Made by a program: the position numbers and the translations under genes. From an uncultured Alphaproteobacteria bacterium (lineage in GTDB: Bacteria; Pseudomonadota; Alphaproteobacteria; HIMB59; GCA-002718135), in assembly GCA_902576125.1 (NCBI GenBank), contig CACGUF010000011.1:1-40944 (forward strand): a DNA stretch of 40,944 nucleotides, written 5' to 3'. The notes under the pieces were generated by a model. It worked only from the letters and a program-made list of their open reading frames with translations, was not told where the DNA came from and did not search any database. Numbering within the stretch: position 1 is the stretch's first letter; the number at the start of each line of letters is the position of its first letter. Below are positions 13,975 through 30,824 of this stretch, piece by piece.

Positions 13975-13992
13975 GTTAAAATATTGAAAGAT

Positions 13993-16280: not shown

Positions 16281-17431
16281 ATTCCTTTCAAATTTTAGAA
16301 AAACTAATTTCTTTTGATACTGTTAGTTCAAATTCAAATTTACAGCTCATATCTTATTGTGAGAAACTTTTAAAAGATGCTGGAGCAGAAATTACGCTTA
16401 TATCAAATAAAGAAAAAACAAAAGCTAATCTCTTTGCAACTATTGGACCTGTCGATCAACCAGGAATAATTTTATCAGGTCACACTGATGTTGTTCCAGT
16501 AACAAATCAAAAATGGAAAACTAATCCATTTAAGCTAACAGAAATTGATAATAAATTATATGGAAGGGGTACTGCTGATATGAAAAGTTTTGTGGCTTGT
16601 GCATTAAATGCGGCTTCAAAAGCGTCTTCAATGAATTTAAAAATCCCTCTCCATTTTTCTTTTTCATATGATGAGGAAATAGGGTGTATAGGTGTAAGAT
16701 CATTGATAGAAATGTTAAAATCTTCTTCAATTAATCCTCTTTTTTGTATTGTTGGAGAACCAACATCAATGCAAGTAATGTCAGGTCATAAAGGTAAAGT
16801 TAATGCTTTAGTTTCGATAAAAGGAAAAGAAGCTCACTCAGCTTTAACAACAAAAGGATTAAATTCTATCTACATAGCTAGTGAATTCATACAAGGGATT
16901 CAAAATATACAAACTAACTTAATAAATAACTCAACTCACGATAATGATTTTGAGGTTCCTTTCACAACTTTACAAGTTGGTAAAATTGAAGGAGGAGTCG
17001 CGGTAAATATTGTTCCAAGTTCCTCAAGTCTATTATTTGAAATAAGAAGTTTGCATAGTGATGATCCAAATTTAATATTAAAAGATATAGAAAATTTATC
17101 TGAGAAAATTGTAAAATCTCATATTGATAAATTTCCTGATACTGCAATTGAAATTAAAGTAACAAGTCAATACCCGGCACTAAATACAATGAAAAATTCA
17201 GATGTAATAAGTTTTTTAAATGGATTAACTGGAAGCAATAGTGTTCAAAAAGTTTCATTTGGAACTGAAGGTGGTCTTTTTAGTAAAGAATTAAAAATTG
17301 AAACAGCAATCTGTGGTCCTGGATCAATGAATCAAGGTCATAAACCTAACGAATATATTGAAAAAGCACAGATCAATTTATGTGACCAAATGTTAGAAAA
17401 TTTATTAGATAAATTAGAAACAGGATTATAA
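16277..17431 (+). CDS. ArgE/M20-family deacetylase (acetylornithine deacetylase-like)
   Basis: A 384-residue M20 metallohydrolase. Metal and catalytic residues are visible: His69 and Asp71 in SGHTDVVP, Asp101 in GRGTADMK, and Glu133-Glu134 in YDEEIGC. The dimerisation domain segment GHKGKVNALVSIKGKEAHS and the C-terminal GPGSMNQGHKPNEYI match ArgE. ArgE cleaves N2-acetylornithine in arginine synthesis. Here it is coupled by a 4-base overlap to a dioxygenase, so it may instead cleave another N-acyl amino acid in a catabolic operon. It converges with the acetylpolyamine amidohydrolase gene, leaving only 4 bases between. Confidence 0.85.
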   Translation: MNSFQILEKLISFDTVSSNSNLQLISYCEKLLKDAGAEITLISNKEKTKANLFATIGPVDQPGIILSGHTDVVPVTNQKWKTNPFKLTEIDNKLYGRGTADMKSFVACALNAASKASSMNLKIPLHFSFSYDEEIGCIGVRSLIEMLKSSSINPLFCIVGEPTSMQVMSGHKGKVNALVSIKGKEAHSALTTKGLNSIYIASEFIQGIQNIQTNLINNSTHDNDFEVPFTTLQVGKIEGGVAVNIVPSSSSLLFEIRSLHSDDPNLILKDIENLSEKIVKSHIDKFPDTAIEIKVTSQYPALNTMKNSDVISFLNGLTGSNSVQKVSFGTEGGLFSKELKIETAICGPGSMNQGHKPNEYIEKAQINLCDQMLENLLDKLETGL

Positions 17432-17435
17432 AAAC

Positions 17436-18470
17436 TTAAGATAAAGAGCCCTCAAAACCTTTTAATACATTAACTGTATTAATGCCTATTTCCTTAATTG
17501 CGTATCCACCTTCCATTACAAATAAAGTTGGCAAATTGCATGAAGCTATTTTTTTTCCAATATCAAAAAAATCGTCACTTTTTAACTTAAAAAAACTAAT
17601 GGGATCTTTTTCATACGTATCAACACCTAAAGAAATTAACAATGCATCGGGTTGATAAGATTGAATTTTTTCTATGGCATCATCAAGAGTTCTTGTCCAT
17701 TCAGTATAAGGTGTTCCAGGTTGCATTGGATAGTTAATATTAAAACCCTCCCCTGCTCCATGGCCCTTTTCATTAGCATGACCAAGAAAATGTGGAAATG
17801 CCTCCTTAGGATCTCCATGAAGTGATGCAAAGTAAACATCTGGTCGATCATAAAATATTGCTTGCGTTCCATTTCCATGATGAAAATCCACGTCCAAAAT
17901 AAAAATTTTCTTAGCACCTTTTTCAATTAATCTTTCTGATGCGATAGCAACGTTATTAAAAAAACAATATCCACCATACTGATCTTTAGATGCATGATGG
18001 CCTGGGGGTCGACATAAAGCAAATAAACTTTTTTCCTTTTCCAGCATATCAGTTGCTGTCAAAACAACTTTTACAGCTTCATAAGCTCCTTCAACTGTAC
18101 CTTCACTAATTGATGTTTCATTAGCAAGAGCATAATAACCAAGTTTGCCTTCAATAAAATTAGGAATAACATCTGAAGGCATCGATCGACTTGGCCAAAC
18201 AGTTGGAATAGCCTCACCTCCTAAGCCAAGTTTTAACCATTCTTTCCAAGCAACATTCAAAAATTCAACATAGTGCTTATCATGAACTTTAAAAATTATG
18301 TCTGTATTTATATTTACTGGGTCCATAATCGGTCCAAGATCTCGTTCTTTAATTGCATTAATAATAAATTCCATTCGCTCTGGTCTTTCAAATGGCTGCA
18401 CCAGTTCGCCCCCATACAATTCTGTTTTTGAATTACGAAGAATATGATTTTTTGAATAAATTGTTTTCAT
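17436..18470 (-). CDS. aphA: Acetylpolyamine amidohydrolase (class II HDAC-like)
   Basis: A 344-residue zinc deacetylase of the arginase/HDAC fold that removes acetyl groups from acetylputrescine, acetylcadaverine or acetylspermidine. Catalytic residues fall at the same numbers as I recall for Mycoplana ramosa APAH: His158 and His159 in PPGHHAS, zinc ligands Asp195 and His197 in DVDFHHGNG and Asp284 in GVDTYEKDP, and Tyr323 in EGGYA. The specificity-loop glutamates (IEGKLGYY and NETSIS) also appear conserved. The N-terminal HxLRNxKTELYGGELV is APAH-typical and excludes AcuC. It is the last gene of the (-) amine operon, 6 bases after the DMT permease gene. Confidence 0.92.
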   Translation of the reverse strand: MKTIYSKNHILRNSKTELYGGELVQPFERPERMEFIINAIKERDLGPIMDPVNINTDIIFKVHDKHYVEFLNVAWKEWLKLGLGGEAIPTVWPSRSMPSDVIPNFIEGKLGYYALANETSISEGTVEGAYEAVKVVLTATDMLEKEKSLFALCRPPGHHASKDQYGGYCFFNNVAIASERLIEKGAKKIFILDVDFHHGNGTQAIFYDRPDVYFASLHGDPKEAFPHFLGHANEKGHGAGEGFNINYPMQPGTPYTEWTRTLDDAIEKIQSYQPDALLISLGVDTYEKDPISFFKLKSDDFFDIGKKIASCNLPTLFVMEGGYAIKEIGINTVNVLKGFEGSLS

Positions 18471-18476
18471 TATCTA

Positions 18477-19379
18477 TTATTCGATTGGTATATTTTTAAT
18501 TCTATATTGTTGATTTCCTATCATAAAAATAGATATACCAATTAATAGCGTACTAATAAATTTTATAAAAGTAAATGTTTCTCCAAAAATAAGAAATCCC
18601 CACAAGAAACCTGCAGGCATAACTAAATATGAACTTAGATTAACAAAAACAGCACCTACTTTATTTAAAATATAAAAAAATAACCATACTTCAATAAAAG
18701 TTACAAACGCTAATATCCAGAAACTTGGAACAGTAAGCCATTGGTAATGATCGTATAATTTATTGCCATAAAAAATTGATAGAAGAATGACAAAGATTAA
18801 AGATGCAATAGATTCCCCAAATGCTACTTGTGTTGAGTCAAGGTTTCTAGGCCAAAATTTTTCCATAAAAATAGCATCAAATGCATAAGATAATGGAATG
18901 ATTAAAGCATAAACAGCCCAAATATTTGCTGATGTATTATTATAGTTATTTCCATATAATAAAATTACAAGACCAACTAATCCTGATAAAGTTCCTATTA
19001 GCAACTTAGTGGTTACATTTAATAGTCTAAATATCCAAATAACGAAAAGAGTAAAAACAGGAACAACTGATATAATTAATGTTAATATTCCTGCTTCAAT
19101 TTTAGGGGCAACAACAAATTCGACACTTAAAGGGATTACATAAGCAAGCATACCTGCAACAGAAAAGAATAGAGATTTTTTAAATGTGAATTTAAAAAGT
19201 TTTTTTTGAAAAAATAATAGAATAAAAAATAAAACACAAAGCACAGCTAACAAAGAAACTAAAATAGTTAATGGACTATCATCGGCTTCAACTAATTTAA
19301 CTAAAGAGAAGTGTAATGCCCATAATGAAGATAAGACAAATAGTAGCGCTATATTTTTATATTCTTCTAATTTTTCCAT
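18477..19379 (-). CDS. EamA/DMT-superfamily permease
   Basis: A 300-residue protein with about ten hydrophobic segments in two five-helix halves, typical of the drug/metabolite transporter superfamily. The second half starts near NIWAVYALIIPLSYAFDAIF (about residue 150). It starts immediately after the amidase stop with no spacer and is followed 6 bases later by the acetylpolyamine amidohydrolase. This placement suggests it moves an amine, amide or acetylated product across the inner membrane, either importing an extra substrate or exporting an overflow product. Direction and substrate are not readable from the sequence. Confidence 0.85.
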   Translation of the reverse strand: MEKLEEYKNIALLFVLSSLWALHFSLVKLVEADDSPLTILVSLLAVLCVLFFILLFFQKKLFKFTFKKSLFFSVAGMLAYVIPLSVEFVVAPKIEAGILTLIISVVPVFTLFVIWIFRLLNVTTKLLIGTLSGLVGLVILLYGNNYNNTSANIWAVYALIIPLSYAFDAIFMEKFWPRNLDSTQVAFGESIASLIFVILLSIFYGNKLYDHYQWLTVPSFWILAFVTFIEVWLFFYILNKVGAVFVNLSSYLVMPAGFLWGFLIFGETFTFIKFISTLLIGISIFMIGNQQYRIKNIPIE

Positions 19380-20816
19380 TCAAAGCTTGGGTCGATTATC
19401 TTTATCAAATAACCATGAAATAGATTTTTCATAACCCAACGATACTCTAAAAACTGTATTATCATCATAAGCTTTGCCAATAATTTGCATTCCCGTTGGA
19501 ACTCCATTTGAAGCAAATCCTGTTGGCGCTGACATAACCGGTAATCTTGACAACATATTAAATGGTGTTGTTAACCACATTGATTCATCTCCTGTTTCTT
19601 CAGTTCTTCTAACTTCTTCATTAAAGTCATAATTAAGATTTGGATAACCATGATCTGCTGGAATACCTGTTACTGCATTTGTAGGACATATAAAAACATC
19701 ATATTTGTCAAATATAGGTCCAAACTTGGCATATGCATCCCAAGCAACATTATTGCAATGAACTAATTCACTAAGAGTTTTTTCTTTACTAGCTTCAATA
19801 AATTTTTGCGTATAAGCGCAAAGAAGTTCTTCTTTTCCCTTTGAAATTTCTTTAAGACTCGTTCCCCATAAAGCAGTCAGATAAGTTCCTGCTGCATCCA
19901 AAATATTGTCTGGCAATTTTAGATCAACATATTCAACTGTTGCTCCGTTTTCCTCGAGTAGATTGAGGGCATTTTTCATATTGGTAACAATGTCATCCTC
20001 AACTTCAAATCCACATAAATGATCTGACCAAGCAATTTTAATATTTTTTAAATTTGAATTTCCATCAAAATCTTCTGGTTTCGGCATACTTGCAATATCT
20101 TGATTATGCATACCAGCAGTGGATAACTGCATTAAAATGATATCTTCAACACTACGTGCCATAGGACCTGAGTGACTGTAATAATCTAGATTGCCATATG
20201 GCACTTCAGGATTTCTTCCATAGGGAGGTTTGTATCCAAAAACACCACAAGCAGCTGCAGGAATTCTAATTGAACCGCCAATATCAGAACCAGAAGCTAT
20301 GGCGCAAGCTCCAGTCGCAAGAGCTACTCCTGAACCCCCAGATGATCCTCCTGGAGTATATTTCTTATTCCACGGATTAGTTGTTATACCGTGCAGGTCA
20401 GACCAAGTTGTTCCTAATAAACAAAACTCAGGTGTTGTTGTTTTAAATAATGGAATACTTCCTTGATCAAGCAAGCGTTGAATATAAACATCAGTATAAT
20501 TATCAATCCTATCTTTAAAAATTTTAGAACTACTTGATCGACAAGAATTCTTAAAAGCGAATTCTTCTTTAATAGCAAAAGGGATTCCTTCTAAAAGTCT
20601 TGGTTCTTGAGCATTGTCTAAAAAAACTCTCTCAGACTGTAGTGCTAAATCTATTGCTTGTTTTTCAAAAAAATCTGTGAAAGCATTACACTCTTTTTGT
20701 ATTTGATTTGCTCTTTCTAATGATGCTTTAGTAACTTCTACCGGAGATAATTCTTTCGACTTAAAAGCCTTTAATAATTTTTTTCCACTCCAGTATAAAA
20801 AATCTTGATCACTCAT
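19380..20816 (-). CDS. Amidase-signature hydrolase
   Basis: A 478-residue amidase-signature enzyme with the Ser-cisSer-Lys triad: Lys83 in FAIKEEF, cis-Ser158 in PGGSSGGSG and nucleophile Ser182 in SDIGGSIR, with the usual 24-residue spacing between the two serines. It is too short to suggest extra domains and GatA is unlikely without GatB/GatC. It probably hydrolyses a small amide or acylated amine feeding the amine-oxidation operon. The ATG lies 8 bases after a strong terminator that follows potD, with no recognisable Shine-Dalgarno, so expression depends on read-through. The stop abuts the next gene's ATG. Confidence 0.9.
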   Translation of the reverse strand: MSDQDFLYWSGKKLLKAFKSKELSPVEVTKASLERANQIQKECNAFTDFFEKQAIDLALQSERVFLDNAQEPRLLEGIPFAIKEEFAFKNSCRSSSSKIFKDRIDNYTDVYIQRLLDQGSIPLFKTTTPEFCLLGTTWSDLHGITTNPWNKKYTPGGSSGGSGVALATGACAIASGSDIGGSIRIPAAACGVFGYKPPYGRNPEVPYGNLDYYSHSGPMARSVEDIILMQLSTAGMHNQDIASMPKPEDFDGNSNLKNIKIAWSDHLCGFEVEDDIVTNMKNALNLLEENGATVEYVDLKLPDNILDAAGTYLTALWGTSLKEISKGKEELLCAYTQKFIEASKEKTLSELVHCNNVAWDAYAKFGPIFDKYDVFICPTNAVTGIPADHGYPNLNYDFNEEVRRTEETGDESMWLTTPFNMLSRLPVMSAPTGFASNGVPTGMQIIGKAYDDNTVFRVSLGYEKSISWLFDKDNRPKL

Positions 20817-20824
20817 ATATAAAT

Positions 20825-20862
20825 AAAAAAACCCATTGATGTAAAATCAATGGGTTTTTTTT
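20825..20862 (-). terminator. Intrinsic terminator after potD (symmetrical)
   Basis: A perfect stem (ACCCATTGAT at 20831-20840 with ATCAATGGGT at 20846-20855, extended by A/T pairs on both sides) encloses a 5-base loop at 20841-20845. T-runs follow on both strands, so it could work in either direction. It lies between the potD stop and the amidase start. Confidence 0.9.
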
Positions 20863-20872
20863 AGTTTAATTT

Positions 20873-21916
20873 TTACTGCATTAATTTAGTCCAAACTTTA
20901 TCAATAAGAGCTTGAGACTCTTTATTACAAGCTTGACCAAATTTAACAGGTATACCATCTGGTACCTGAATGTTAGTTGCATTTTTCATATCATCAGAAA
21001 GATATTTAGCAGATTCAGGAATTGCATTTGCATAAGCAGCAAAGTTAGATAACATTGCCATATTTTCAGGATGCATAACAAAATTCATAAAAGCTTTTGC
21101 TTCTTCCACGTTTTTTGCACCTTTAGGCATAACTAAACTATCAAACCATCCAACAACTCCTTCTTTAGGATAAGCATAAGTAAGGTCATCAACACCTTCC
21201 CATTTTCCAACCTGACTATATCCATCCCAATGTGCATGCATAATTACTTCACCACTCATCAAACGTTCGTTGATTCCCTCAGAAGAATAAACTGCCACAC
21301 ATTTTTTTTGTTCAATTAGGAGATCCATAACTGCTTGCATTTCATTAGGATCTTCAGAGCAAAAACTGGATCCTAATGCTAAGTGAGCCATATTTACAAC
21401 CTCCTCAGGAGATTTAAATACTGCTACTTTGCCACATACTTCATCTGACGGCTTAAAAAATTCCATCATTGATGAACCATTTCCAGAATAAGAGTCAGCT
21501 CTGTATGCCCAGCTAGCAGAACCCATCTGCCATGGAGTTGAGTAATCTTGGTTTGGATCAAAAGATGGTCCTTGAAATTGATCAGCTACATATTTGTAGT
21601 TGGGCATATCTTTAATACCATCTACTTTTTCAATTAAGCCCTCTTTGATCATGATTTCTACGAAATGTTGTGATGGAACTGCAAGATCATATCCTGTTGA
21701 ACCACCTCCTGCCTGTAATTTAGCAAGAAGGGTCTCGTTTGAATCATAAGTATCAACTGTAACTGAAATTCCTGTTTCTTTTTCAAATTTTTCAATGAGA
21801 TCTTCTGGTGTATAATCTGCCCAGTTGTACAAATTTAATTTGCCTGCAGCAAATACACTTGTACTAAAAAATAAAAAAGAAATTGAAACTAATATTTTTA
21901 ATAGCTTCCCTTTCAT
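20873..21916 (-). CDS. potD: Polyamine ABC transporter substrate-binding protein (PotD/PotF-like)
   Basis: A 347-residue periplasmic protein with a signal peptide cleaved after VFA (residue 23), leaving AGKLNLYNWADYTPEDLI, the hallmark N-terminus of PotD/PotF proteins. Later segments YDLAVPSQHFVEIMIKEGLI and MPNYKYV also match. A strong Shine-Dalgarno (AGGAGG) is 4 bases from the ATG. It is the fourth transporter gene after potA-potB-potC and is separated from potC by 118 bases, possibly to allow separate expression. Several Cys residues (EVCGKV, SSFCSED, KKCVAV, QACNKE) may form disulfides. The ligand could be putrescine, spermidine or a related diamine such as an acetylated form. Confidence 0.9.
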   Translation of the reverse strand: MKGKLLKILVSISFLFFSTSVFAAGKLNLYNWADYTPEDLIEKFEKETGISVTVDTYDSNETLLAKLQAGGGSTGYDLAVPSQHFVEIMIKEGLIEKVDGIKDMPNYKYVADQFQGPSFDPNQDYSTPWQMGSASWAYRADSYSGNGSSMMEFFKPSDEVCGKVAVFKSPEEVVNMAHLALGSSFCSEDPNEMQAVMDLLIEQKKCVAVYSSEGINERLMSGEVIMHAHWDGYSQVGKWEGVDDLTYAYPKEGVVGWFDSLVMPKGAKNVEEAKAFMNFVMHPENMAMLSNFAAYANAIPESAKYLSDDMKNATNIQVPDGIPVKFGQACNKESQALIDKVWTKLMQ

Positions 21917-21972
21917 GTATCCTCCTATTTGTTTTGGTTAAAAAAACTTTTAAAATTCTGATATATTAAACT

Positions 21973-21991
21973 GTAAAAATAGAATTTTTAC
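21973..21991 (-). other. Hairpin in the potC-potD gap
   Basis: A perfect 8-base inverted repeat (GTAAAAAT / ATTTTTAC) with a 3-base loop lies between potC and potD. It is A/T-only except for its end pair and lacks a following T-run on the (-) strand, so it is a poor terminator. It may be an RNA-processing or stability element that raises potD mRNA, or chance. Confidence 0.3.
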
Positions 21992-22034
21992 TAGTTAAAT
22001 TTTCCAAAAATCCCTAAAAATTTCAACTAAAATA

Positions 22035-22847
22035 CTAATTTTTTATTTTTCTATTAAAAAACCAATAAAGTGTAACAATAAATATAGAAAATGCTAACAT
22101 CAGACTTGATACTGCATTTACCTCAGGGGATACGCCCATCTTAACCATACTATATATGTATACAGGTAAAGTTGTTGCACCACCTCCAGCAACCATTAAT
22201 GTAATTATAAAATCATCAATAGATATTACAAACGCTAACATGAAACCTGATAAAATGCCTGGGGTTAGTAGAGGTAAAGTAATTGTTTTAAATGTAGATG
22301 TTTTATCAGAATACAAATCTCGTGCAGCTAATTCTAAATTAGGATCCATTGCCTCCAAAGCAGCTTTAATTGGCATAAATGCAAATGGTATGCAAAATAC
22401 TGTATGAGCGATTATAACATTAATAAGTCCAAGATTAATACCAAGAGATGCAAAGAAAATTAATGTAGCAACTGCTGTAACAATTTCAGGAACCATTAAA
22501 GGTAATGTGATTAAACCACTACTAAATTCTCTAAAACGAAATTCTCCACCTCTTACTAGTGCAAGTGCTGAAAAAGTTGCAATTATAGTCGCTAACGGAG
22601 CTGCAGCAAAAGCAACTATAAAAGAATTTATTGTTGCTGTTTGAATATCATCATTTGAAAATAATTTAGCATACCAACGAAATGAAAAACCAGTCCATAT
22701 CATTGCAAACTTACTTGAGTTAAAGCTGTAACAAACTAAGATAAAAATAGGTATGTATAGAAAGCCAAAAAATATTGCAGTCCAACCTCCAAAGCCTGGA
22801 AAATTCCAAACATAACGAAATTTTGTTTTCTTATTTTTGGTTTGCAT
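22035..22847 (-). CDS. potC: Polyamine ABC transporter permease PotC
   Basis: A 270-residue inner-membrane permease with about six hydrophobic helices. The EAA loop reads LELAARDLYSDKTSTFKTI followed by TLPLLTPGI near residues 170-198. The SIDDFIITLMVAGGG segment in the last third is a PotC/PotI signature. It begins 17 bases inside the end of potB, so the two permeases are translationally coupled and should form the heterodimeric channel with PotA. A 118-base gap with a small hairpin separates it from potD downstream. Confidence 0.92.
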   Translation of the reverse strand: MQTKNKKTKFRYVWNFPGFGGWTAIFFGFLYIPIFILVCYSFNSSKFAMIWTGFSFRWYAKLFSNDDIQTATINSFIVAFAAAPLATIIATFSALALVRGGEFRFREFSSGLITLPLMVPEIVTAVATLIFFASLGINLGLINVIIAHTVFCIPFAFMPIKAALEAMDPNLELAARDLYSDKTSTFKTITLPLLTPGILSGFMLAFVISIDDFIITLMVAGGGATTLPVYIYSMVKMGVSPEVNAVSSLMLAFSIFIVTLYWFFNRKIKN

Positions 22848-23739
22848 ATTCTCTGTGCTTTCTGTTTAAACGAGCATTAAATATTAAAACCAAGATTACC
22901 AAAGCCAATAAAAACATTGCCATTGCGGCACCAAAAGGCCAGTTTCTTGCATAAGAAAACTGAAACTGAATTAACGATCCTAATAATAATTTTTTTCCAC
23001 CCCCTAGTAAATCGGGTGCAATAAATGCTCCTAAACAAGGTACAAAAACCAAAATACTTCCACCAATTATTCCTGGCATTGATAGTGGTAAGATAATTTT
23101 ACGAATTAGTTCTATTCGATTTGAATATAGATCTGTTGCTGCCTCTAGAAGTCGTAAATCCATTTTCTCCATCGAAGCATATATTGGTAGAACCATTAAT
23201 GGTAAATAAGAATAAACTAACCCAATAAGTATAGCACTATTAGTGTACATTAAATTTAGAGAACTTTCCTCGTCTAACAAACCAAAAAAATTAAAAGAGG
23301 ATTCTATCACGCCACCCTTACCTAATATTATAATCCAAGCAAAAGTTCTGATTAATAGGTTTGTCCAAAAAGGAATAGTTACAAGAAAGATTAATATATT
23401 TTTTACTCTGTCAGACTGTCTTGAAATAAAGTACGCGGCAGGAAAACCAATTAAAAGCGATAAAAATGTTGCAGCTAGAGCCAACATAAAAGATCTGGCA
23501 ATAATAATCAAATATGCAGGATTAAATTCTATTTCATCAAATAGATTGGTATCAAATAAAATTTGTCGATAGCCACTAAGACTAAATTTAAAATGAACAC
23601 CTCCGTAGACATTTGATTCCATCAAAGAAACTACTGCCATAACCAACAAAGGGCCAATCATAAAAATTCCAATAACTATCCATAAAGGCAATAAAGATAA
23701 TATTCTATTTTGGGTTTTATTTTCTCCCTGAATATTCAT
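22831..23739 (-). CDS. potB: Polyamine ABC transporter permease PotB
   Basis: A 302-residue permease with about six membrane helices. Family segments include RSFMLALAATFLSLLIGFPAAYFISR, IPFWTNLLIRTFAW and the EAA loop RLLEAATDLYSNRIELIRKI followed by ILPLSMPGI. The C-terminal GGGKKLLLGSLIQFQF segment matches PotB/PotH. It overlaps the potA stop by one base (TAATG) and runs 17 bases into potC. Together with PotA, PotC and PotD it makes a complete polyamine importer, unlike the sugar importer at 5234-8352 which lacks an ATPase. Confidence 0.92.
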   Translation of the reverse strand: MNIQGENKTQNRILSLLPLWIVIGIFMIGPLLVMAVVSLMESNVYGGVHFKFSLSGYRQILFDTNLFDEIEFNPAYLIIIARSFMLALAATFLSLLIGFPAAYFISRQSDRVKNILIFLVTIPFWTNLLIRTFAWIIILGKGGVIESSFNFFGLLDEESSLNLMYTNSAILIGLVYSYLPLMVLPIYASMEKMDLRLLEAATDLYSNRIELIRKIILPLSMPGIIGGSILVFVPCLGAFIAPDLLGGGKKLLLGSLIQFQFSYARNWPFGAAMAMFLLALVILVLIFNARLNRKHREYANQK

Positions 23740-24818
23740 TAGTCAATAACCTGAGCACTTTCTTTTGGAAAATGAATATCAACGTAATCATCTTTTTTAA
23801 AAACTTTTAAATCTTCAATTGGTAAATTTACATTAATTAATTGATTATTTGATTTTAATTGGATGGTTGCAGCATTACCAAGATAAGTAAATTCAGAAAT
23901 ACTTAGCTGACTTTTATCTTTAGATGATTTTTCTATCTTAATTCTCTCAGGTCTAATAAATATTGTTACTTTATCATTTTGTTTTATGTGAGGGGGTACA
24001 AACAAGTTTAATTCATGCCCAGTATCAAGTTCACAAACACCATTTTCTCCAGGAGTTTTGCAAACACCAGATAATAAATTTGCTTCACCTATAAAATTTG
24101 CAACAAACTTATTGGATGGACTTTCATATATTTGCTCAGGCTCCCCAATTTGTTGTATCTCACCTTCATTAATAACAGCAATACGGTCTGACATTGTTAG
24201 CGCTTCTTCCTGGTCATGCGTAACAAATACAAAGGTAATACCAGTTTCTCTTTGTAAGGTTTTTAATTCAAAACGCATTGCTTGACGAAGCTTTAGATCT
24301 AAAGCAGACAGAGGTTCATCCAAAAGTAACACTTTTGGTTCTGGAGCTAAAGCCCTTGCTAGAGCAACTCTTTGCTGTTGACCTCCAGATAATTGATTAG
24401 GTTTTCTATTGGCATACTCTTTCATTTGAACAAGCTCTAGTACTTCAAAGGTTCTGCTTTCAACCAAACTTGCATCTTTTTTTAGACGTCTAAGACCAAA
24501 AGCGACATTTTCGTATACATTTAAATGGGGGAACAAAGAGTATTGTTGAAAAACTGTATTTACAGGTCTTTTATTTGGAGGAAGGTTTACAATTTCTTGA
24601 TTGAACAAGTTGATTGAACCCTCAGTAATATCTTCAAAACCTGCAATAAGACGAAGTAATGTAGTCTTACCGCAGCCGGAAGGACCAAGCAGTGTAAAAA
24701 ATTCATTATCATAAATAGTTAAGTTTGCGCTCTTTAATGCTTTGGTTTGAGTATTACCACTAGTGTAAATTTTAGTTACATTTCTAACATCAATTGCATT
24801 AACTTTTTTTTCCATCAT
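23739..24818 (-). CDS. potA: Polyamine ABC transporter ATP-binding protein PotA
   Basis: A 359-residue ATPase with Walker A GPSGCGKTT, Q-loop QQYSLFPHL, ABC signature LSGGQQQRVALARAL, Walker B VLLLDEPLSALD and switch His in VTHDQEEAL. A C-terminal TOBE-type domain (from about residue 235) is as in PotA/CysA/UgpC. It drives PotB-PotC. It is the first transporter gene, 81 bases after the amine dehydrogenase, on the same strand. It is the only ABC ATPase in the window, so sharing with the orphan sugar permeases is conceivable but unproven. Confidence 0.94.
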   Translation of the reverse strand: MMEKKVNAIDVRNVTKIYTSGNTQTKALKSANLTIYDNEFFTLLGPSGCGKTTLLRLIAGFEDITEGSINLFNQEIVNLPPNKRPVNTVFQQYSLFPHLNVYENVAFGLRRLKKDASLVESRTFEVLELVQMKEYANRKPNQLSGGQQQRVALARALAPEPKVLLLDEPLSALDLKLRQAMRFELKTLQRETGITFVFVTHDQEEALTMSDRIAVINEGEIQQIGEPEQIYESPSNKFVANFIGEANLLSGVCKTPGENGVCELDTGHELNLFVPPHIKQNDKVTIFIRPERIKIEKSSKDKSQLSISEFTYLGNAATIQLKSNNQLINVNLPIEDLKVFKKDDYVDIHFPKESAQVID

Positions 24819-24899
24819 AATATAAATATTAAAGTTGATGCATACTTAAACACATAGAGAAAAATTTTAAATCAAAAAAAATTTATTTTACGTTTTTTT

Positions 24900-26981
24900 T
24901 TAGTTAGACGCCAAATTTGTAACTTCTCTTCTAAAAGGAAGGTTATCTCCTATATCTTCGGCATCTAATTCTCTGGCATAGCGATGGCCAGCATATGTAG
25001 CCCAAGCAATTGGTCCTGGAGCATTTGCATCTCCAATTAACTTTACTGATGTAATTCCAGCATCATTCCATATTGTTTTTTTCAAAAGAAGATCTTTGTA
25101 CAATTGATCTTGAGGTTGACGCGATGCAACCATGACTAAATGATCTGTTTCAATTTCTTTTTTATTTTGCGTATAAATACAGTTGGAGATTAACTTTGAA
25201 TTAGAAATTGAAACCAAGCCTCTATTCAATTCAATCTCAACTCCCATTTCAATTAGTCTTTTTTGAATTTCTGCTTGTTCCAACGTATTAATAGACCATT
25301 CCGAAACATATGCGCACGGTGTTAAGAAAGTAACATCACAACCTTTTTCAATAAGTCTCTCTGCTATAACACCTCCCATATAGTAATGATCGTCATCATA
25401 AATAACAACTTTGCCTGTTGGTAAATTGTTATTCATAATATCATCGGGGGTATATATATTTATTGATTTATCATTTACAATTGGCACAACGTGCTGTCGT
25501 GATACCCCGTCTGCTCTCCAACTAGAGCCTGTTGCTATGCAAACATTTTCAAATCCAAACTCTAACACTTGATCAGCATTTAAAGGGGATTCTAAATAAC
25601 TCTCTACATTAGGTTTTTGAGATAATTGATATTCTCTATAATCGGCAACTCTCCCCCAAGCAGAGAGCCCAGGTAATTTTCTTTCTTTAGCGACTCTGCC
25701 TCCTAGAATGTTAGATGCTTCAGTAATCGTAACATCGTAACCTCTGTTAGAACATGCTAAAGCAGCTTCTAAGCCTGCGGGACCGGAGCCAATAACTAAA
25801 ACTTTAGATGTTTTTCCTTTAGGTTCTATTATTTCTGGGTGCCAACCTTTGCGCCATTCTTCCATAAAAGTTGGATTTTGAGTACATCTACTTATCGACA
25901 TAGTCATATCACCAGTAATACAAATATTACAACCAATACATTCCCGAATATCTTGTATGCGACCCTCTTCTATTTTTTTTGGTAAAAAAGGATCAGCAAT
26001 AGATGGTCTGGCACATCCTATGAAGTCAAGTGTACCTGTTTTAATTTGTTTAACCATTACATCAGGACTTGTAAAACGGCCAACACCTACGATTGGTTTC
26101 GAAGTCAGTTTTCTGATACCTGTTACAAGATCAAATTGAGCCGCCTCTTCTTTAAAACGCGATGGACCAGAACAATCTTCCCAAGCACCATGAGCTAAGT
26201 CCCATAAATCAGGTAAGTCTTGATTCATTTCAATAAAATCTCTTACTTCTGAATTTGCAAAACCAAGATCACCAATCATTTCATCCAATGATAAGCGAAG
26301 AGTAATACCCATAGTATCACCGACTTCATTTCGAACTTCTTCAACTACTTCTTTTACAAAACGTGCTCTGTTTTCTAAACTACCTCCATACTCATCTGTT
26401 CTTTGATTAGTTGCAGTAGATAAAAAGTGTTGAAATATTCCAAAACCATGAGCGCCATATAAACAAATTAAATTAAAGCCTGCAGTTTTAGATCTTTTTG
26501 CAGCATTAACAAACCATCGTCGAAGATTTTTTATATCTTCTTTATCAAGTGATCTTGCACTGACAGGATCATTTGTAAATGTTCGTATTGGCATGCCTGT
26601 TACCGCAAGAGGTACTTCTTTGGTATATAAGTTTGGGCCATTAATTCCTGAGTAAGCTAATTGAATACCAGCAAGTGCTCCATACTCTTTCATTCTATCA
26701 GCCATTTTTGCAATCATTGGAATATCGGCATCATCCCATAAACGTAACTCAATAAAAGGTGTAATTTCTGATGAGTGGTGCATTTCACATTGCTCTGTGA
26801 AAATTACCCCCCATCCACCTTGGCTTTTTATTCCTCTCATTTCTGCTGCTGCAGAGGGATCTCTATAGCCTCCACCATTACAATGTGGGACTTGATAAAA
26901 ACGATTTTTTGCTTTGACTGGCCCTATGTTAACTGTTTCGAATAAAATATCATAACGGCTATCACGGTCCATGTAATCCAT
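24900..26981 (-). CDS. Amine dehydrogenase of the trimethylamine/histamine dehydrogenase family (6-S-cysteinyl FMN, 4Fe-4S)
   Basis: A 693-residue iron-sulfur flavoprotein that oxidatively deaminates an amine and passes electrons to ETF. Residues 1-340 form the Old Yellow Enzyme barrel; Cys34 in RFYQVPHC matches Cys30 of TMADH, the covalent FMN attachment. Cys348, Cys351, Cys354 and Cys366 (CIGCNIC and CTQN) bind the 4Fe-4S cluster. Residues from about 393 (VLVIGSGPAG) form the ADP-binding dinucleotide domain. In the substrate pocket Gln64, Trp267 and Asp358 replace the TMADH aromatic bowl (Tyr60, Trp264, Trp355). As I recall, histamine dehydrogenase has the same Gln/Trp/Asp set. Tyr175 and His178 match the catalytic Tyr169/His172. 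This favours a primary diamine or histamine-like substrate. It starts one base after the ALDH stop. Confidence 0.88.
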   Translation of the reverse strand: MDYMDRDSRYDILFETVNIGPVKAKNRFYQVPHCNGGGYRDPSAAAEMRGIKSQGGWGVIFTEQCEMHHSSEITPFIELRLWDDADIPMIAKMADRMKEYGALAGIQLAYSGINGPNLYTKEVPLAVTGMPIRTFTNDPVSARSLDKEDIKNLRRWFVNAAKRSKTAGFNLICLYGAHGFGIFQHFLSTATNQRTDEYGGSLENRARFVKEVVEEVRNEVGDTMGITLRLSLDEMIGDLGFANSEVRDFIEMNQDLPDLWDLAHGAWEDCSGPSRFKEEAAQFDLVTGIRKLTSKPIVGVGRFTSPDVMVKQIKTGTLDFIGCARPSIADPFLPKKIEEGRIQDIRECIGCNICITGDMTMSISRCTQNPTFMEEWRKGWHPEIIEPKGKTSKVLVIGSGPAGLEAALACSNRGYDVTITEASNILGGRVAKERKLPGLSAWGRVADYREYQLSQKPNVESYLESPLNADQVLEFGFENVCIATGSSWRADGVSRQHVVPIVNDKSINIYTPDDIMNNNLPTGKVVIYDDDHYYMGGVIAERLIEKGCDVTFLTPCAYVSEWSINTLEQAEIQKRLIEMGVEIELNRGLVSISNSKLISNCIYTQNKKEIETDHLVMVASRQPQDQLYKDLLLKKTIWNDAGITSVKLIGDANAPGPIAWATYAGHRYARELDAEDIGDNLPFRREVTNLASN

Positions 26982-26982
26982 A

Positions 26983-28479
26983 TTAAGCTTTATATTTAAT
27001 CCATCTTGTTTTTAAAGATGTGTATTTATTGAATGAATGTAGCGATAAATCTTTACCATACCCTGATTGTTTTACGCCTCCAAAAGGAGTGATTGTATTT
27101 AATGCATCAACAGTATTAACAGAAACTGTCCCTGCATGAAGATGATCAGAAACTCTAAGCGCACGAGATAAATCATCTGTCCAAACAGATGCAGCTAAAC
27201 CATATACACTATCATTTGCAATAGATAATGCTTCTTCTTCAGTATCAAAAGGAATAACAGATAAAACTGGTCCAAAAATTTCTTCTTTAGCTATTATATC
27301 ATTGGCATTTACATTATTAAAAATAGTTGGTTGAACGTAACATCCTTTACCTTCAATTTTAATTTGTTCACCACCAATTACTAAATCTGCATTCTCTTTT
27401 CCTTTATTAATATAAGAAACAATTTTTTTTGTTTGTACTTCATTTACAATAGCACCCATTTTAGACGCTGGATTAAGCGGATGACCTGGCTGTGTGTCTT
27501 TTGCAATCAATGATAAACGTTCAACAAATTCTTCTTGAACAGTTCTTTCAACTAATAACCTTGAGTTAGCTGAGCAAACTTCTCCTTGATTAAAAAAAAT
27601 TCCAAAAGCTGCCATATTGATAGCTGACTCTAAATCCTTGCAGTCAGCAAATATAAGATTTGGACTTTTACCTCCAGTTTCTAACCATACTTGCTTCATG
27701 TTTGATTGACCTGCATATTGCTGAAATAATTTGCCAACCGCTGTTGAGCCTGTGAATGCAATACAATCTACATCTGGATGAAGGCCTAAAGCCTTTCCAG
27801 CTGTTTCTCCAAAACCTGGAACAACATTAAATACGCCTTCAGGCACACCTGCCTCTACTGCCAGCTCTGCTAATCGTAAAGATGACAATGGTGATTGTTC
27901 TGCAGGTTTTAAAACTATAGAGTTTCCAGCAGCTAAAGCTGCTGAAGCTTTCCATGTTGCCATATCAAGAGGAAAATTCCATGGCACTACAGCCCCTACT
28001 ACTCCAAGAGGCTCTCTTGTTACCATTGCTAAATCACCTGGTCCGGTTGGAGCAATTTCATCATATATTTTATCAATAGCTTCTGCATGCCATTGAAAAA
28101 ATGCTGCTGAGCCAGGAGCATCTATTGTTACAGCATCATTTATAAGTTTACCCATATCCAAACTATCAAGCAAGGCAAACTCTACTAAGTTTTGTCTGAT
28201 TAAATCAGCTAATTTAAGTAAAACCGCTTTTCTGTCTGCTGGAGGCATTTTTGACCAACTACCTTTTTGAAAAGATTTTCTTGCTATTTCAACTGCAAAA
28301 TCAACATCTTCTTGACCACACTCTGCAACCGAGGTTAAAACTTCATCTGTAGCAGGATTGATTGAATTAAAAGTTTTTCCTGATTTAGCTTCAACAAATT
28401 TTCCATTAATGAAAGCTTTATTTCTAAAGCTAATTTTACTCGCAAGCTTCTTCCATTCTTCAAAACTATAATCAGTCAT
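26983..28479 (-). CDS. Aldehyde dehydrogenase (PuuC-like aminoaldehyde dehydrogenase)
   Basis: A 498-residue ALDH with Asn169 in VVPWNFP, general-base Glu267 in LETGGKSPN and nucleophile Cys302 in NQGEVCSANSR, matching the standard ALDH numbering. Length and the N-terminal part (FINGKFVEAKSGKTFNSINPATDEV) resemble PuuC/KauB enzymes that oxidise 4-aminobutyraldehyde, gamma-glutamyl-aminobutyraldehyde or 3-aminopropionaldehyde. It sits one base upstream of the amine dehydrogenase, so it should oxidise the aldehyde that enzyme makes. Substrate is inferred from context; a betaine-aldehyde type enzyme is an alternative. Confidence 0.92.
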   Translation of the reverse strand: MTDYSFEEWKKLASKISFRNKAFINGKFVEAKSGKTFNSINPATDEVLTSVAECGQEDVDFAVEIARKSFQKGSWSKMPPADRKAVLLKLADLIRQNLVEFALLDSLDMGKLINDAVTIDAPGSAAFFQWHAEAIDKIYDEIAPTGPGDLAMVTREPLGVVGAVVPWNFPLDMATWKASAALAAGNSIVLKPAEQSPLSSLRLAELAVEAGVPEGVFNVVPGFGETAGKALGLHPDVDCIAFTGSTAVGKLFQQYAGQSNMKQVWLETGGKSPNLIFADCKDLESAINMAAFGIFFNQGEVCSANSRLLVERTVQEEFVERLSLIAKDTQPGHPLNPASKMGAIVNEVQTKKIVSYINKGKENADLVIGGEQIKIEGKGCYVQPTIFNNVNANDIIAKEEIFGPVLSVIPFDTEEEALSIANDSVYGLAASVWTDDLSRALRVSDHLHAGTVSVNTVDALNTITPFGGVKQSGYGKDLSLHSFNKYTSLKTRWIKYKA

Positions 28480-28490
28480 TTATAAAACTC

Positions 28491-29165
28491 CTATTCATCT
28501 CCTGGGACACCGTATGAAGGTGCCTTGGTTGGATCAATTCCTCTTTGTAAATAATCATTAACTTGCGGTTTATAAACTTCCCAAATTTCAGAGAGTTTTG
28601 TTATTGGACATCCTTCTGTCCAATCACACCTCAAATCAATTATAGGCCATGAAACTTCATGGCTTATTTTTATTCCTGCTGAATGTACAGATCCTGCCTC
28701 ACCGCCAGCCTCAAGGCCACCTTTTAATCCTGCCAACATTCTATCAGCTAAATGACCTTTGGTTTTTTCAAATACTGATATTATTGATTTTGTTACTTCT
28801 TTGTTTTCCAATAAATTTCCAGCAGAAATAATATTATCACCAATAGCTTCACTCCAAATACCAAGAGAATTGTTTCCTGAATGGATTGCTGTTTCCCCAT
28901 TTGAGTCAATTATTAATACCTGTCTATATTCTAAGTGCTGATTTGTTGATTTTATTTTCTCAATAACTTGTGATGAGGATAAACCTGTCTCAAGAAAATC
29001 AAGAGACTTTTTTCCTAATGATGGATCGGTGACATTTTGTGTTGAGACAGCTCCAACATTTGATCTCGTATAAGAGCATCTAGCGGCAACTGCTGGAGAG
29101 GACGATGCAACAGCTGTACCAAGCATACCTGTTTCTTTGCATCTGGCTACTAATGAAAAAGTCAT
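28491..29165 (-). CDS. DUF1028 family protein
   Basis: A 224-residue protein starting MTFSLVARCKETGMLGTAVA, followed by SSSPAVAARC and GAVSTQNVTDPSLG, the DUF1028 pattern. The family is thought to adopt an Ntn-hydrolase (proteasome-like) fold, but its reaction is not established. No signal peptide is seen. The start overlaps the RidA stop by 4 bases and the ALDH gene follows 11 bases after, so it is a translationally coupled member of the amine operon. An amide or acyl-amine hydrolase activity would fit the pathway but is a guess. Confidence 0.88.
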   Translation of the reverse strand: MTFSLVARCKETGMLGTAVASSSPAVAARCSYTRSNVGAVSTQNVTDPSLGKKSLDFLETGLSSSQVIEKIKSTNQHLEYRQVLIIDSNGETAIHSGNNSLGIWSEAIGDNIISAGNLLENKEVTKSIISVFEKTKGHLADRMLAGLKGGLEAGGEAGSVHSAGIKISHEVSWPIIDLRCDWTEGCPITKLSEIWEVYKPQVNDYLQRGIDPTKAPSYGVPGDE

Positions 29166-29578
29166 TCTGGCACTACTGCGGTTGCATCAATTTCAACCAA
29201 CCACTCAGGTCGTGCAAGAGCAGAGACAACTAATCCTGTTGATACAGGATAGATCCCTTTAGTGTATTGGCCAATGGTTCTGTAAACCGCTTCTCTATTT
29301 TTTATATCAGTAATATAGACAACTATTTTTACCAAGTGCTTCATCTCTCCCCCAGCTTCTTTAATAAGTTGTTCTATATTTTGCATCACCTTGTGTGTTT
29401 GATCAGCAGGATCGTTACTATCTAAATTTACAGCATCATCTAAATTTTGTGGGCATTGACCTCTAAGCCAAATTGTTTTTCCACCTTCAGTAACAACAGC
29501 TTGGCACAAGTCATTATCCAAATTTTGTTCAGGGTAGGTATCTTTAGTGTTAAACTTTCTAATTCTTGTATGTTCCAT
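29162..29578 (-). CDS. RidA/YjgF family enamine/imine deaminase
   Basis: A 138-residue RidA-superfamily protein. The characteristic C-terminal ARPEWLVEIDATAV carries the Arg that binds the carboxylate of imino acids in RidA, and the central GGEMKHLVKIVVYITD is family-typical. RidA proteins hydrolyse reactive enamine/imine intermediates, which form when amines or amino acids are oxidised. Its position 25 bases after a flavin oxidoreductase gene and overlapping DUF1028 fits clean-up of imine products made by the amine-oxidising enzymes of this operon. Subgroup (RidA versus Rid1-7) cannot be fixed here. Confidence 0.9.
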   Translation of the reverse strand: MEHTRIRKFNTKDTYPEQNLDNDLCQAVVTEGGKTIWLRGQCPQNLDDAVNLDSNDPADQTHKVMQNIEQLIKEAGGEMKHLVKIVVYITDIKNREAVYRTIGQYTKGIYPVSTGLVVSALARPEWLVEIDATAVVPE

Positions 29579-29603
29579 AATTTTAATAAATACTATCTTT
29601 TAT

Positions 29604-30824
29604 TTACCTATTAGCAATATGTTCAACTACATATTTTGCATCTTTCCAAACACCCCAAATAAAAGAGGAGCCCCTCATAGATAACCAAGGTAAACCAAGA
29701 AAATATAACCCCTTTTCAATACTAACACCATTCTTATGTTTTGGTTTTCCAGTTTCATCAAAAATATCAAACTTTATCCAGTTAAAATTATTCTTATAAC
29801 CAGTTGCCCAAATTATATTCTTTATATTTGATAACTTTAAATCTAACTCTAATATTGGATTTGCAATACATTCATGATCTTTTTCAAATTTTCTTGCCTC
29901 TGGCTCCTCTGGAAAATCTAAATTATTACTTTTAATATATTCATCAGCTTCATCTAATAGACTTAAATAATTATTATCACCATTAATTATATTTTCTTTT
30001 AAATCATTTTCAAAAATTATTTTTTCATTTTTATATTCTTTTGTCATACCTAAAAGGGTAATACCCATGTTAGCAAATTTTCTAAAATCAATTGTTTTTC
30101 CTCCATCATAACCGCTTACTGCAATTGTAACATGTTGTGTTCCTGGGTTTGGTGTTTTTGCTTCCCATTTTCCTAGAACACCCAACCACCAAACATTATC
30201 ACGACCTCTATATCTTCTTGGTGGTCTGTCATGAGGGCCTATTGAAAAGTAAACTTTTTTATTTGAGCGCCTTAATTCTTCAGCAATTTGTGATCCAGAA
30301 GAGCCAGAGCCAATAATTAATACAGCGCCTTCTGAAAATTGATCTGGGTTTTTATATTCTTGTGAATGTATTTGATTAACTATAGAATTCTGAGGAATAA
30401 TTTTAGGAATTATAGGTTCTTGAAAAGCTCCCGTTGCAACTATAACATTATCTGCTTCATATAAACCATCAGACGTTTGAACTAAATATTTGGGATTAGA
30501 AGAATTTTTCTCAACCTTTTCAACATTCACATTAACATGAATGGGGGCATTAATTTTTTTTGCAAATTCTTCAAAATATTCTACTACGCGATTTTTTGAA
30601 ACAAATGAATTAGGATCAGAATTAGAAAACTCTAATGTAGGAAATCGATCGTGCCATGCTGGTCCATTTGCAACAAGTGAGTCCCATCGACAACTTCTCC
30701 ATTTTTCTACAATCCTGTTTCTCTCAAAAATTATATGTTGTATATTATTATTTTTTAAGTGTTCACTAGCAGCTAAACCAGCTTGCCCACCACCAATAAT
30801 AATCGTGTTTGTATATTTGAGCAT
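29604..30824 (-). CDS. Flavin-containing monooxygenase-like FAD/NAD(P)H oxidoreductase
   Basis: A 406-residue flavoprotein with an N-terminal FAD-binding GGGQAGLAASEHL (residues 11-23), a second dinucleotide motif GSGSSGSQIAEELRR near residue 170 and the ATG-type motif WATGYKNNF near the C-terminus, the arrangement of CzcO/FMO-like monooxygenases. A Trp-rich segment (NVWWLGVLGKW) lies in the middle. It is the first gene of the (-) amine operon, so it may N-oxygenate or otherwise oxidise an amine or its product. Substrate unknown. The upstream 132-base gap is shared with the divergent miniprotein gene and should hold the operon promoter. Confidence 0.85.
   Translation of the reverse strand: MLKYTNTIIIGGGQAGLAASEHLKNNNIQHIIFERNRIVEKWRSCRWDSLVANGPAWHDRFPTLEFSNSDPNSFVSKNRVVEYFEEFAKKINAPIHVNVNVEKVEKNSSNPKYLVQTSDGLYEADNVIVATGAFQEPIIPKIIPQNSIVNQIHSQEYKNPDQFSEGAVLIIGSGSSGSQIAEELRRSNKKVYFSIGPHDRPPRRYRGRDNVWWLGVLGKWEAKTPNPGTQHVTIAVSGYDGGKTIDFRKFANMGITLLGMTKEYKNEKIIFENDLKENIINGDNNYLSLLDEADEYIKSNNLDFPEEPEARKFEKDHECIANPILELDLKLSNIKNIIWATGYKNNFNWIKFDIFDETGKPKHKNGVSIEKGLYFLGLPWLSMRGSSFIWGVWKDAKYVVEHIANR

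Follow-up and report, generated by a model that had tools for sequence, protein, structure and literature searches.

Which substrate do twelve neighbouring genes of an uncultured alphaproteobacterium (HIMB59 lineage) serve, and do they belong to one pathway? The genes occupy positions 17436 to 30824 of a 40,944-nucleotide stretch of DNA (contig CACGUF010000011.1, assembly GCA_902576125.1), which at its full length we call the window; a preliminary description, made from the letters alone, had seen in them a single operon that imports, deacetylates and oxidises polyamines or acetylated amines. Gene content, gene order, the active-site match of the dehydrogenase, co-occurrence in relatives and the modular states of the chromosomal site suggest to us, with considerable confidence, that the set encodes histamine uptake and degradation to aspartate (i.e. 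a Hin-type pathway with a dehydrogenase and an ABC importer as its front end).

Gene content and predicted pathway

The run of twelve consecutive genes with small gaps was borne out by the list and translations of open reading frames (ORFs): all twelve lie on the (-) strand, and the spacing of neighbours ranges from a 17-base overlap to a 118-base gap. The features are (basis of assignment in brackets):

29604-30824, (-): HinF-type FAD monooxygenase (hereafter FMO, flavin monooxygenase-like), predicted to act as imidazoleacetate 4-monooxygenase; the unit begins with it (family, gene order)
29162-29578, (-): HinL-type RidA, predicted deaminase of the imine/formimino intermediate (family, order)
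28491-29165, (-): HinH-type DUF1028 protein, predicted amidohydrolase (family, order)
26983-28479, (-): aldehyde dehydrogenase (ALDH), predicted imidazole-acetaldehyde dehydrogenase in the HinD role (family)
24900-26981, (-): predicted histamine dehydrogenase with 6-S-Cys-FMN and 4Fe-4S (identity, active-site residues)
23739-24818, (-): PotA-like ABC ATPase of the predicted histamine importer (family)
22831-23739, (-): PotB-like permease (family)
22035-22847, (-): PotC-like permease (family)
20873-21916, (-): PotD-like binding protein (family, site residues)
20825-20861, (-): hairpin terminator-like site 3' of potD (16 pairs, then a T-tract)
19380-20816, (-): amidase-signature protein, past the terminator (family)
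18477-19379, (-): EamA/DMT permease, past the terminator (family)
17436-18470, (-): acetylpolyamine amidohydrolase-like protein (APAH), resident gene of the site (family, site in relatives)
16277-17431, (+): HinG-type M20 hydrolase, predicted to deformylate N-formylaspartate; runs convergently to the operon (family, neighbourhood, tree)
18471-28490, (-): eight genes over 10 kb that, in the relatives seen, are either all there or all missing between DUF1028 and APAH (site comparison)

From 17436 upward the Pfam/NCBIfam families were Hist_deacetyl, EamA, Amidase, SBP (PotD-like), two BPD_transp_1 (PotC/PotB-like), ABC ATPase (above the TIGR01187 potA cut-off), Oxidored_FMN with Pyr_redox_2, Aldedh, DUF1028, Ribonuc_L-PSP (RidA) and a flavin monooxygenase-like protein. 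The families named earlier were confirmed by these assignments, except that the dehydrogenase is of the histamine-dehydrogenase and not of the trimethylamine dehydrogenase (TMADH) type. In the 5' half the intervals are 25 bases (FMO-RidA), a 4-base overlap (RidA-DUF1028), 11 (DUF1028-ALDH), 1 (ALDH-dehydrogenase) and 81 bases (dehydrogenase-PotA); in the 3' half, overlaps of 1 (PotA-PotB) and 17 bases (PotB-PotC) are followed by gaps of 118 (PotC-PotD), 56 (PotD-amidase), 0 (amidase-EamA) and 6 bases (EamA-APAH). The range given earlier holds the twelve genes as said, but the functionally linked M20 gene falls just outside it, 4 bases separating its stop from that of the convergent APAH gene. 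A family scan of the twelve genes found neither a HinC aminotransferase nor a HinA permease among them.

Histamine would be brought in by PotABCD and oxidised by the dehydrogenase to imidazole acetaldehyde, the electrons probably passing to electron-transfer flavoprotein (ETF); the ALDH would then yield imidazole-4-acetate and so join both halves of the pathway. The HinF-type monooxygenase would hydroxylate the ring of imidazole-4-acetate; ring opening and removal of the formimino nitrogen and of the formyl group would be shared among DUF1028 (HinH), RidA (HinL) and M20 (HinG), with aspartate, ammonia and formate as products. The intermediates would be imidazolone acetate, N-formimino-aspartate and N-formylaspartate. 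All these catalytic activities are predicted, as is the division of steps among the last three hydrolases.

The dehydrogenase

Compared with solved structures, the protein (693 residues) scored 1167 bits with the histamine dehydrogenase of Rhizobium sp. (6de6), 805 bits with that of Nocardioides simplex (3k30) and 504 bits with TMADH, and 497 of 685 residues (72.6%) are identical to 6de6. All twelve active-site or mutagenesis-target residues published for the Rhizobium enzyme (Gln60, Ile69, Phe72, Glu74, Asn110, Tyr171, His174, Phe176, Arg225, Trp263, Asp265 and Asp354; PMC10180351) are identical at +4 numbering. Six more residues of the tunnel were compared, and five agree, Thr262 being Ala266 in the window protein. 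Nocardioides Gln65, Trp267 and Asp358 align with window Gln64, Trp267 and Asp358, while the covalent-FMN Cys34 and the 4Fe-4S cysteines (348, 351, 354 and 366) are all kept. Sharing these features, the Rhizobium and Nocardioides proteins are treated in the accessible text as isolated assay enzymes, whereas that of the window stands in a predicted pathway with an importer.

In an alignment of 95 orthologue rows (partly non-independent, as some genomes enter twice and the window's own copy is included), ten of the twelve active-site positions are invariant and Phe76 and Asp269 are present in 90. Of the 46 paralogue rows, 43 retain the catalytic residues Tyr, His and Trp and all retain Arg; they diverge mainly at six of the twelve positions (64, 73, 76, 114, 180 and 269). 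The aromatic bowl of TMADH consists of Tyr60, Trp264 and Trp355; a TMADH function was rejected, as only Trp264 is kept, Tyr60 having Gln64 as its counterpart and Trp355 lying within an insert next to Asp358. By its residues, then, the protein is a predicted histamine dehydrogenase (EC 1.4.9.1), not a TMADH-like enzyme. ETF as its electron acceptor, already proposed in the preliminary description, is plausible because the window genome has an ETF alpha gene, the acceptor role itself being a prediction.

Gene neighbourhood in relatives

The synteny set was made up of the dehydrogenase loci L032-L111, the top 80 among 571 confirmed relatives (L-numbers denote loci; genes called by fixed score thresholds); 58 of the 80 were well covered (at least 8 kb on both sides). 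FMO, RidA and DUF1028 each exceeded the threshold in 60 of the 80, followed by PotB and PotC (54 each), PotA (53), PotD (51), M20 (50), ALDH (38), APAH (14), amidase (3) and EamA (3). Within the well-covered loci, FMO, RidA and DUF1028 occurred jointly in 44 and together with M20 in 35, M20 in 39 and the full PotABCD in 39. RidA and DUF1028 lay on the same strand within 300 bases at 55 of the 56 loci with both over threshold, and M20 shared the strand of the dehydrogenase in 35 of 50. The synteny check proposed beforehand thus upheld the module and the importer but not the amidase and the DMT permease, whose three loci are all close kin of the window (the close kin being L032-L035, with L033 ending at PotC); four more loci held weak amidase matches (70-163 bits). 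Much of the set is conserved in relatives, and the earlier idea that import, dehydrogenation and aldehyde oxidation form one pathway is supported.

Of 49 places in a class sample of 289 genomes, 44 lay below 67% identity, and 16 of the latter (49-59% identity) were taken as a paralogue control: none matched FMO, RidA, DUF1028 or M20 at E 1e-5 within a 20-kb stretch. Among the four places at 67-75% identity, L142 carried FMO, RidA, DUF1028, ALDH, M20 and PotABCD, and L141 carried RidA, DUF1028, M20, PotABCD and APAH. The families recurring at the 80 loci outside the window's twelve were LysR (54), Rieske GbcA-like (13), AguB-like (12) and HpaB-like (9); these counts come from ORF clustering and those of the genes above from score thresholds, which is why figures for the same gene differ slightly (APAH 15 and 14, respectively).

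In Granulosicoccaceae metagenome-assembled genomes (L057, L061, L067 and L088), PotABCD precedes the dehydrogenase, with APAH between them in L057 and L088; FMO, RidA and DUF1028 were not seen in L057, L061 and L067, and L088 has FMO and RidA. In the cultured roseobacter Roseovarius nubinhibens ISM (L083), the dehydrogenase and an ALDH stand together with FMO, RidA and DUF1028.

The predicted imidazoleacetate module

Pseudomonas putida U requires eleven Hin proteins, of which HinFLHG convert imidazoleacetate to aspartate, and hinF, L, H and G correspond to PA5393-PA5390 in P. aeruginosa (PMC8231116). HinF is described as an FAD-monooxygenase (EC 1.14.13.5), HinL as an enamine deaminase, HinH as an amidase and HinG as an amidase (EC 3.5.1.8; PMC6467879). 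In the window FMO, RidA and DUF1028 follow one another in the order F-L-H, from 30824 down to 28491, with no gene between. By description and gene order, FMO, RidA, DUF1028 and M20 would correspond to HinF, HinL, HinH and HinG, the equation of HinH with the DUF1028 protein being drawn from gene order and the word 'amidase'.

The likeness to the Hin pathway (hinABCD, hinFLHG, hinIJ and hinK in P. putida U and P. aeruginosa; PMC8231116, PMC6467879) covers the ALDH, FAD-monooxygenase, enamine deaminase, amidase and a candidate second hydrolase, the order F-L-H(-G) and the end product aspartate, which is predicted here from the genes. The differences, so far as the accessible text goes, concern the first step (HinC aminotransferase there, flavin dehydrogenase here), uptake (APC permease HinA, ABC importer), regulation (the LysR regulator HinK, no LysR-type gene being seen beside the window operon) and the hinG-like gene, which in the window is convergent and stands in a separate gene run. 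A putative histamine pathway of Brevibacterium, a member of another phylum, has homologues of HinD, F, L, H and I with neighbouring locus tags and an alternative amine-oxidising front end (PMC6467879), yet employs a histamine oxidase, or HinC with a permease, and not a dehydrogenase with an ABC importer. PMC9227395 mentions, in its accessible part, Pseudomonas hin genes only. Among the open-licence PubMed Central papers listed, several lists giving just the first of many hits, none dealt with the breakdown of histamine in SAR11, in AEGEAN-169 or in roseobacters, or with an operon joining histamine dehydrogenase with hin genes. The parts are known; as far as those papers show, their combination is new, and so are the group of organisms and the assembly block by block.

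Plasmids carry the order FMO-RidA-DUF1028-ArgE/M20 in Pantoea (L112), Burkholderia (L115), Arthrobacter (L116), Streptomyces (L131) and Mycolicibacterium (L132). In Streptomyces an aspartate ammonia-lyase follows, and in Arthrobacter the same five genes are preceded by an ALDH and a primary-amine oxidase, which would make a complete histamine-to-fumarate gene set. On a Rhizobium gallicum plasmid (L128), FMO, ALDH, dehydrogenase, RidA, DUF1028, M20 and PotAB stand together on one strand. Among 18 FMO plasmid regions, hand-picked from search listings, RidA and DUF1028 were within the stretch in 12 (L112-L116, L128, L131-L133, L136, L165 and L166) and missing from it in 5 (L127, L129, L130, L134 and L135), the FMO matches of L129 and L130 being MSMEG_0569 proteins; one (Pseudomonas silvicola, L126), sparsely annotated and with its FMO match in five pieces, could not be judged. 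A query with the Pantoea DUF1028 protein named no Pseudomonas among the 120 matches listed of 7313.

A listing of FMO relatives covered 120 of 8000. The nearest named NCBIfam of the window FMO is MSMEG_0569 of the Nit1C set (TIGR04046), but the score (378 bits) lies below the cut-off (498), identity is about 36%, no Nit1C neighbour was seen among the genes identified at the locus, and in the tree the protein is split from the two MSMEG_0569/Nit1C rows at 100/100; Nit1C membership was rejected on these grounds. Within its own clade the tree leaves its placement open, and the FMOs linked to RidA/DUF1028 do not form one group (6 changes, the starred branches forcing at least 4).

Position 113 of RidA is Ser in 69 of 74 rows, including the window protein, Cys in 4 and Phe in 1; among solved relatives it is Arg in 3r0p, 5v4d and 3k0t, and Ser in 2ig8. 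Thr2 of the DUF1028 protein (sole solved relative 2imh, 47 bits) is kept in 73 of 74 rows, which would suit an N-terminal nucleophile. For the product of the adjacent M20 gene, the nearest of the rows compared, its own clade apart, were M20 proteins from dehydrogenase loci (50-53% identity); the quick tree held the 16 best-scoring of these and three long rows of the own genome, whose place is uncertain. The M20 gene is the last of a (+) strand run (11818-17431) of malate synthase G, ALDH, a taurine-dioxygenase-like gene and M20, with overlaps of 10 and 4 bases among the last three, the 4-base overlap joining M20 to the taurine-dioxygenase-like gene.

Some further observations concern the FMO. 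Plasmids of Salipiger abyssi (L165, 8992-18791) and Acetobacter pomorum (L113, 8165-16564) hold FMO, RidA, DUF1028, ALDH and a GMC-type oxidoreductase, with no amine dehydrogenase in the stretch, a set that suggests an alcohol-oxidising front end, perhaps for imidazole-ethanol. At E 1e-70 the window FMO was matched by 105 Klebsiella plasmid records (53-55% identity among the matches listed), and in Escherichia coli L127 and Pantoea dispersa L134 the FMO lacks RidA/DUF1028 beside it and instead adjoins an ABC transporter and a glyoxylate reductase. The window FMO shares 74% identity with L032/L035 (dehydrogenase 95-96%) but 85-86% with L033/L034 (dehydrogenase 85%), which points to an exchange of FMO alleles.

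Modular states of the chromosomal site

The 162 genomes of the order examined (G-numbers) contain orthologues of the dehydrogenase (at least 85%) in 6, of PotD in 5 (all operon carriers), of FMO in 8, of M20 in 6 (and one more at 40%) and of APAH in 9. Members unfound in the six dehydrogenase carriers (FMO in G344; PotD, APAH and M20 in G296; M20 in G343) would lie beyond contig ends. The site, flanked by CIA30 (mostly with bactofilin) on one side and by TauD, ALDH and malate synthase G on the other, was found in four states. G354 and G323 (the latter cut by a contig end on the TauD/M20 side) have APAH and neither FMO-RidA-DUF1028 nor the dehydrogenase genes; G347 has FMO-RidA-DUF1028-APAH without M20; G346 has the same genes with M20; and G349, like the window, carries between DUF1028 and APAH a further 10 kb with ALDH, dehydrogenase, PotABCD, amidase and EamA, a block absent in G346 and G347. 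M20 is missing from the malate synthase G-ALDH-TauD run in G347 and G354, and in G289, from a different genus, M20 lies back to back with FMO-RidA-DUF1028 among different neighbours.

Three parts thus come and go separately, namely APAH, FMO-RidA-DUF1028(-M20) and the dehydrogenase-importer block, and the pathway would therefore have been assembled from modules, the differences between the genomes being gains or losses. APAH is a resident gene of the site and a candidate pathway step only: its presence in G354 and G323 without pathway genes weakens the deacetylation step advanced in the preliminary description, and as a shown step it was rejected.

The importer

The window genome has one close PotD, that of the operon. 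It scores about 162 bits with E. coli PotD, and the importer has in common with the spermidine/putrescine transporter PotABCD the family, the subunit order A-B-C-D and the main acidic and Trp site residues. In E. coli numbering, Trp34, Tyr37, Ser83, Glu171, Trp229, Trp255, Asp257 and Tyr293 are kept (the acidic pair as Glu172 and Asp259), and Thr35 is replaced by Ala33, Tyr85 by His84, Asp168 by Ser169, Gln327 by Cys330 and Glu36 by Asp. As the row of 4gl0 has Gly at the Asp168 position, this residue is not universal among solved relatives, and its change was therefore not used as proof of a histamine ligand. PotABCD is likely an importer of histamine, a ligand that we infer; the pot genes of AEGEAN-169 have been read as polyamine uptake (PMC10308909).

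Transcription

Between potD and the amidase gene, a 16-pair hairpin with a T-tract (20825-20861) recurs in the three relatives examined (L032, L034 and L035), in L034 with sequence changes. The run of twelve same-strand genes stands, yet a single twelve-gene operon, as first described, is doubtful because of this kept terminator, at which transcription may largely stop after nine genes; the twelve as one assured transcription unit were accordingly rejected. The arrangement suggests a predicted nine-gene histamine unit (FMO to PotD), with amidase, EamA and APAH expressed less or separately. A promoter would hardly fit into the potD-amidase gap, so that some read-through is likely, and as the hairpin ends near the amidase start, read-through is possible and separate units are unproven. 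Terminator-like sites numbered 15 on both strands where 6.5 were expected, and a promoter scan was uninformative (58 found, 64.5 expected by shuffling).

Alternative explanations

Several points weigh against the histamine reading. The link to HinF/L/H/G of P. putida U (AWA45227-AWA45230) is by description and gene order, and the ALDH, whose best family is PuuC, scores under that family's cut-off and has a putative HinD role by family. The FMO clade includes proteins of an E. coli plasmid (L127), Pantoea (L134) and Allorhizobium (L135) without adjoining RidA/DUF1028, so that imidazoleacetate use does not follow from the FMO by itself; in the M20 tree the sole rows from outside dehydrogenase loci are the three of the own genome. 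None of FMO, RidA and DUF1028 was nearby at 7 of the 58 well-covered loci, two further orthologue places at 67-75% identity had FMO alone (L139) or none of the module (L140), and no LysR gene was found beside the window operon, against 54 of the 80 relatives' loci. PotD keeps most residues of the polyamine site, and, relative to histamine, the Rhizobium enzyme oxidises agmatine at 10% and 1,3-diaminopropane at 13% of the rate, and that of Nocardioides putrescine at 30% (PMC10180351).

These side activities, the names of PotABCD and APAH (best named after polyamines) and the occurrence of an N-carbamoylputrescine-amidase-type gene in 12 and of APAH in 14 of 80 loci (15 by clustering) all speak for a use of polyamines or acetylpolyamines, in which PotABCD imports, the hydrolase deacetylates, dehydrogenase and ALDH oxidise, and FMO, RidA and DUF1028 are clean-up enzymes. 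We hold this to be quite improbable: aspartate ammonia-lyase follows FMO-RidA-DUF1028-M20 in two actinobacteria (L116 and L131), APAH occurs at the site without pathway genes, and the amidase and permease lie past the kept terminator. As the dehydrogenase has the site of the histamine enzyme and stands with a module that is, by description and order, of the imidazoleacetate-to-aspartate type, the polyamine or acetylated-amine substrate first proposed is not supported. Another imidazole amine (N-acetylhistamine or a methylated histamine) might instead be the substrate and histamine an intermediate, with APAH or the amidase deacylating and, in relatives, a Rieske GbcA-like protein demethylating. 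APAH and the amidase do adjoin the operon in the window, APAH stands beside PotABCD in other carriers (e.g., L043, L048 and L054) and Rieske GbcA-like genes occur in 13 of 80 loci, but each of the three is a minority (APAH 14, amidase 3, Rieske 13) and APAH is found at the site without the pathway, which leaves this alternative unlikely. That FMO-RidA-DUF1028-M20 use external imidazoleacetate while the inserted block oxidises an unrelated amine seems scarcely credible; it would fit the module without the dehydrogenase block (G346, G347 and G289) and the seven loci mentioned above, yet the two blocks meet in varied orders and orientations across lineages (L041, L055, L101 and L128), as fits one shared pathway, and the compound that dehydrogenase and ALDH are predicted to yield is the one required by the other module.

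Significance

If the histamine reading is true, histamine, familiar from animals and food, could be tested in small-genome marine bacteria and roseobacters as a source of nitrogen and carbon; some PotABCD-type genes annotated as polyamine uptake in such bacteria (cf. PMC10308909) would serve histamine uptake; and DUF1028, a Pfam family of unknown function, would gain a concrete pathway step to assay. The site states would illustrate block-by-block pathway assembly within a small genome. As a tentative extension, which we regard as possible rather than probable, imidazoleacetate catabolism would be a common plug-in core (FMO, RidA, DUF1028 and M20) of marine and soil bacteria, fed by varied front ends (dehydrogenase, aminotransferase, copper oxidase or GMC alcohol oxidase), with DUF1028 as the ring-opening imidazolone-acetate hydrolase, the arginine-less RidA as a formimino-aspartate deiminase, and dissolved histamine and imidazoleacetate as a real nitrogen source for streamlined ocean bacteria. 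Such a core would give the DUF1028 and RidA families defined new reactions.

Genomic context

The window genome (1.26 Mb in 37 contigs, 72% complete) has one match each for DUF1028, Hist_deacetyl and ETF alpha. An Rfam scan found the tRNA only, and the G+C content is 33.5% in 17436-30824 and 30.6% in the rest of the window. By the dehydrogenase, the nearest named records are the single-cell amplified genomes (SAGs) AG-447-A02, AG-447-O15 and AG-319-D07, together with Pelagibacterales SAG-MED31.

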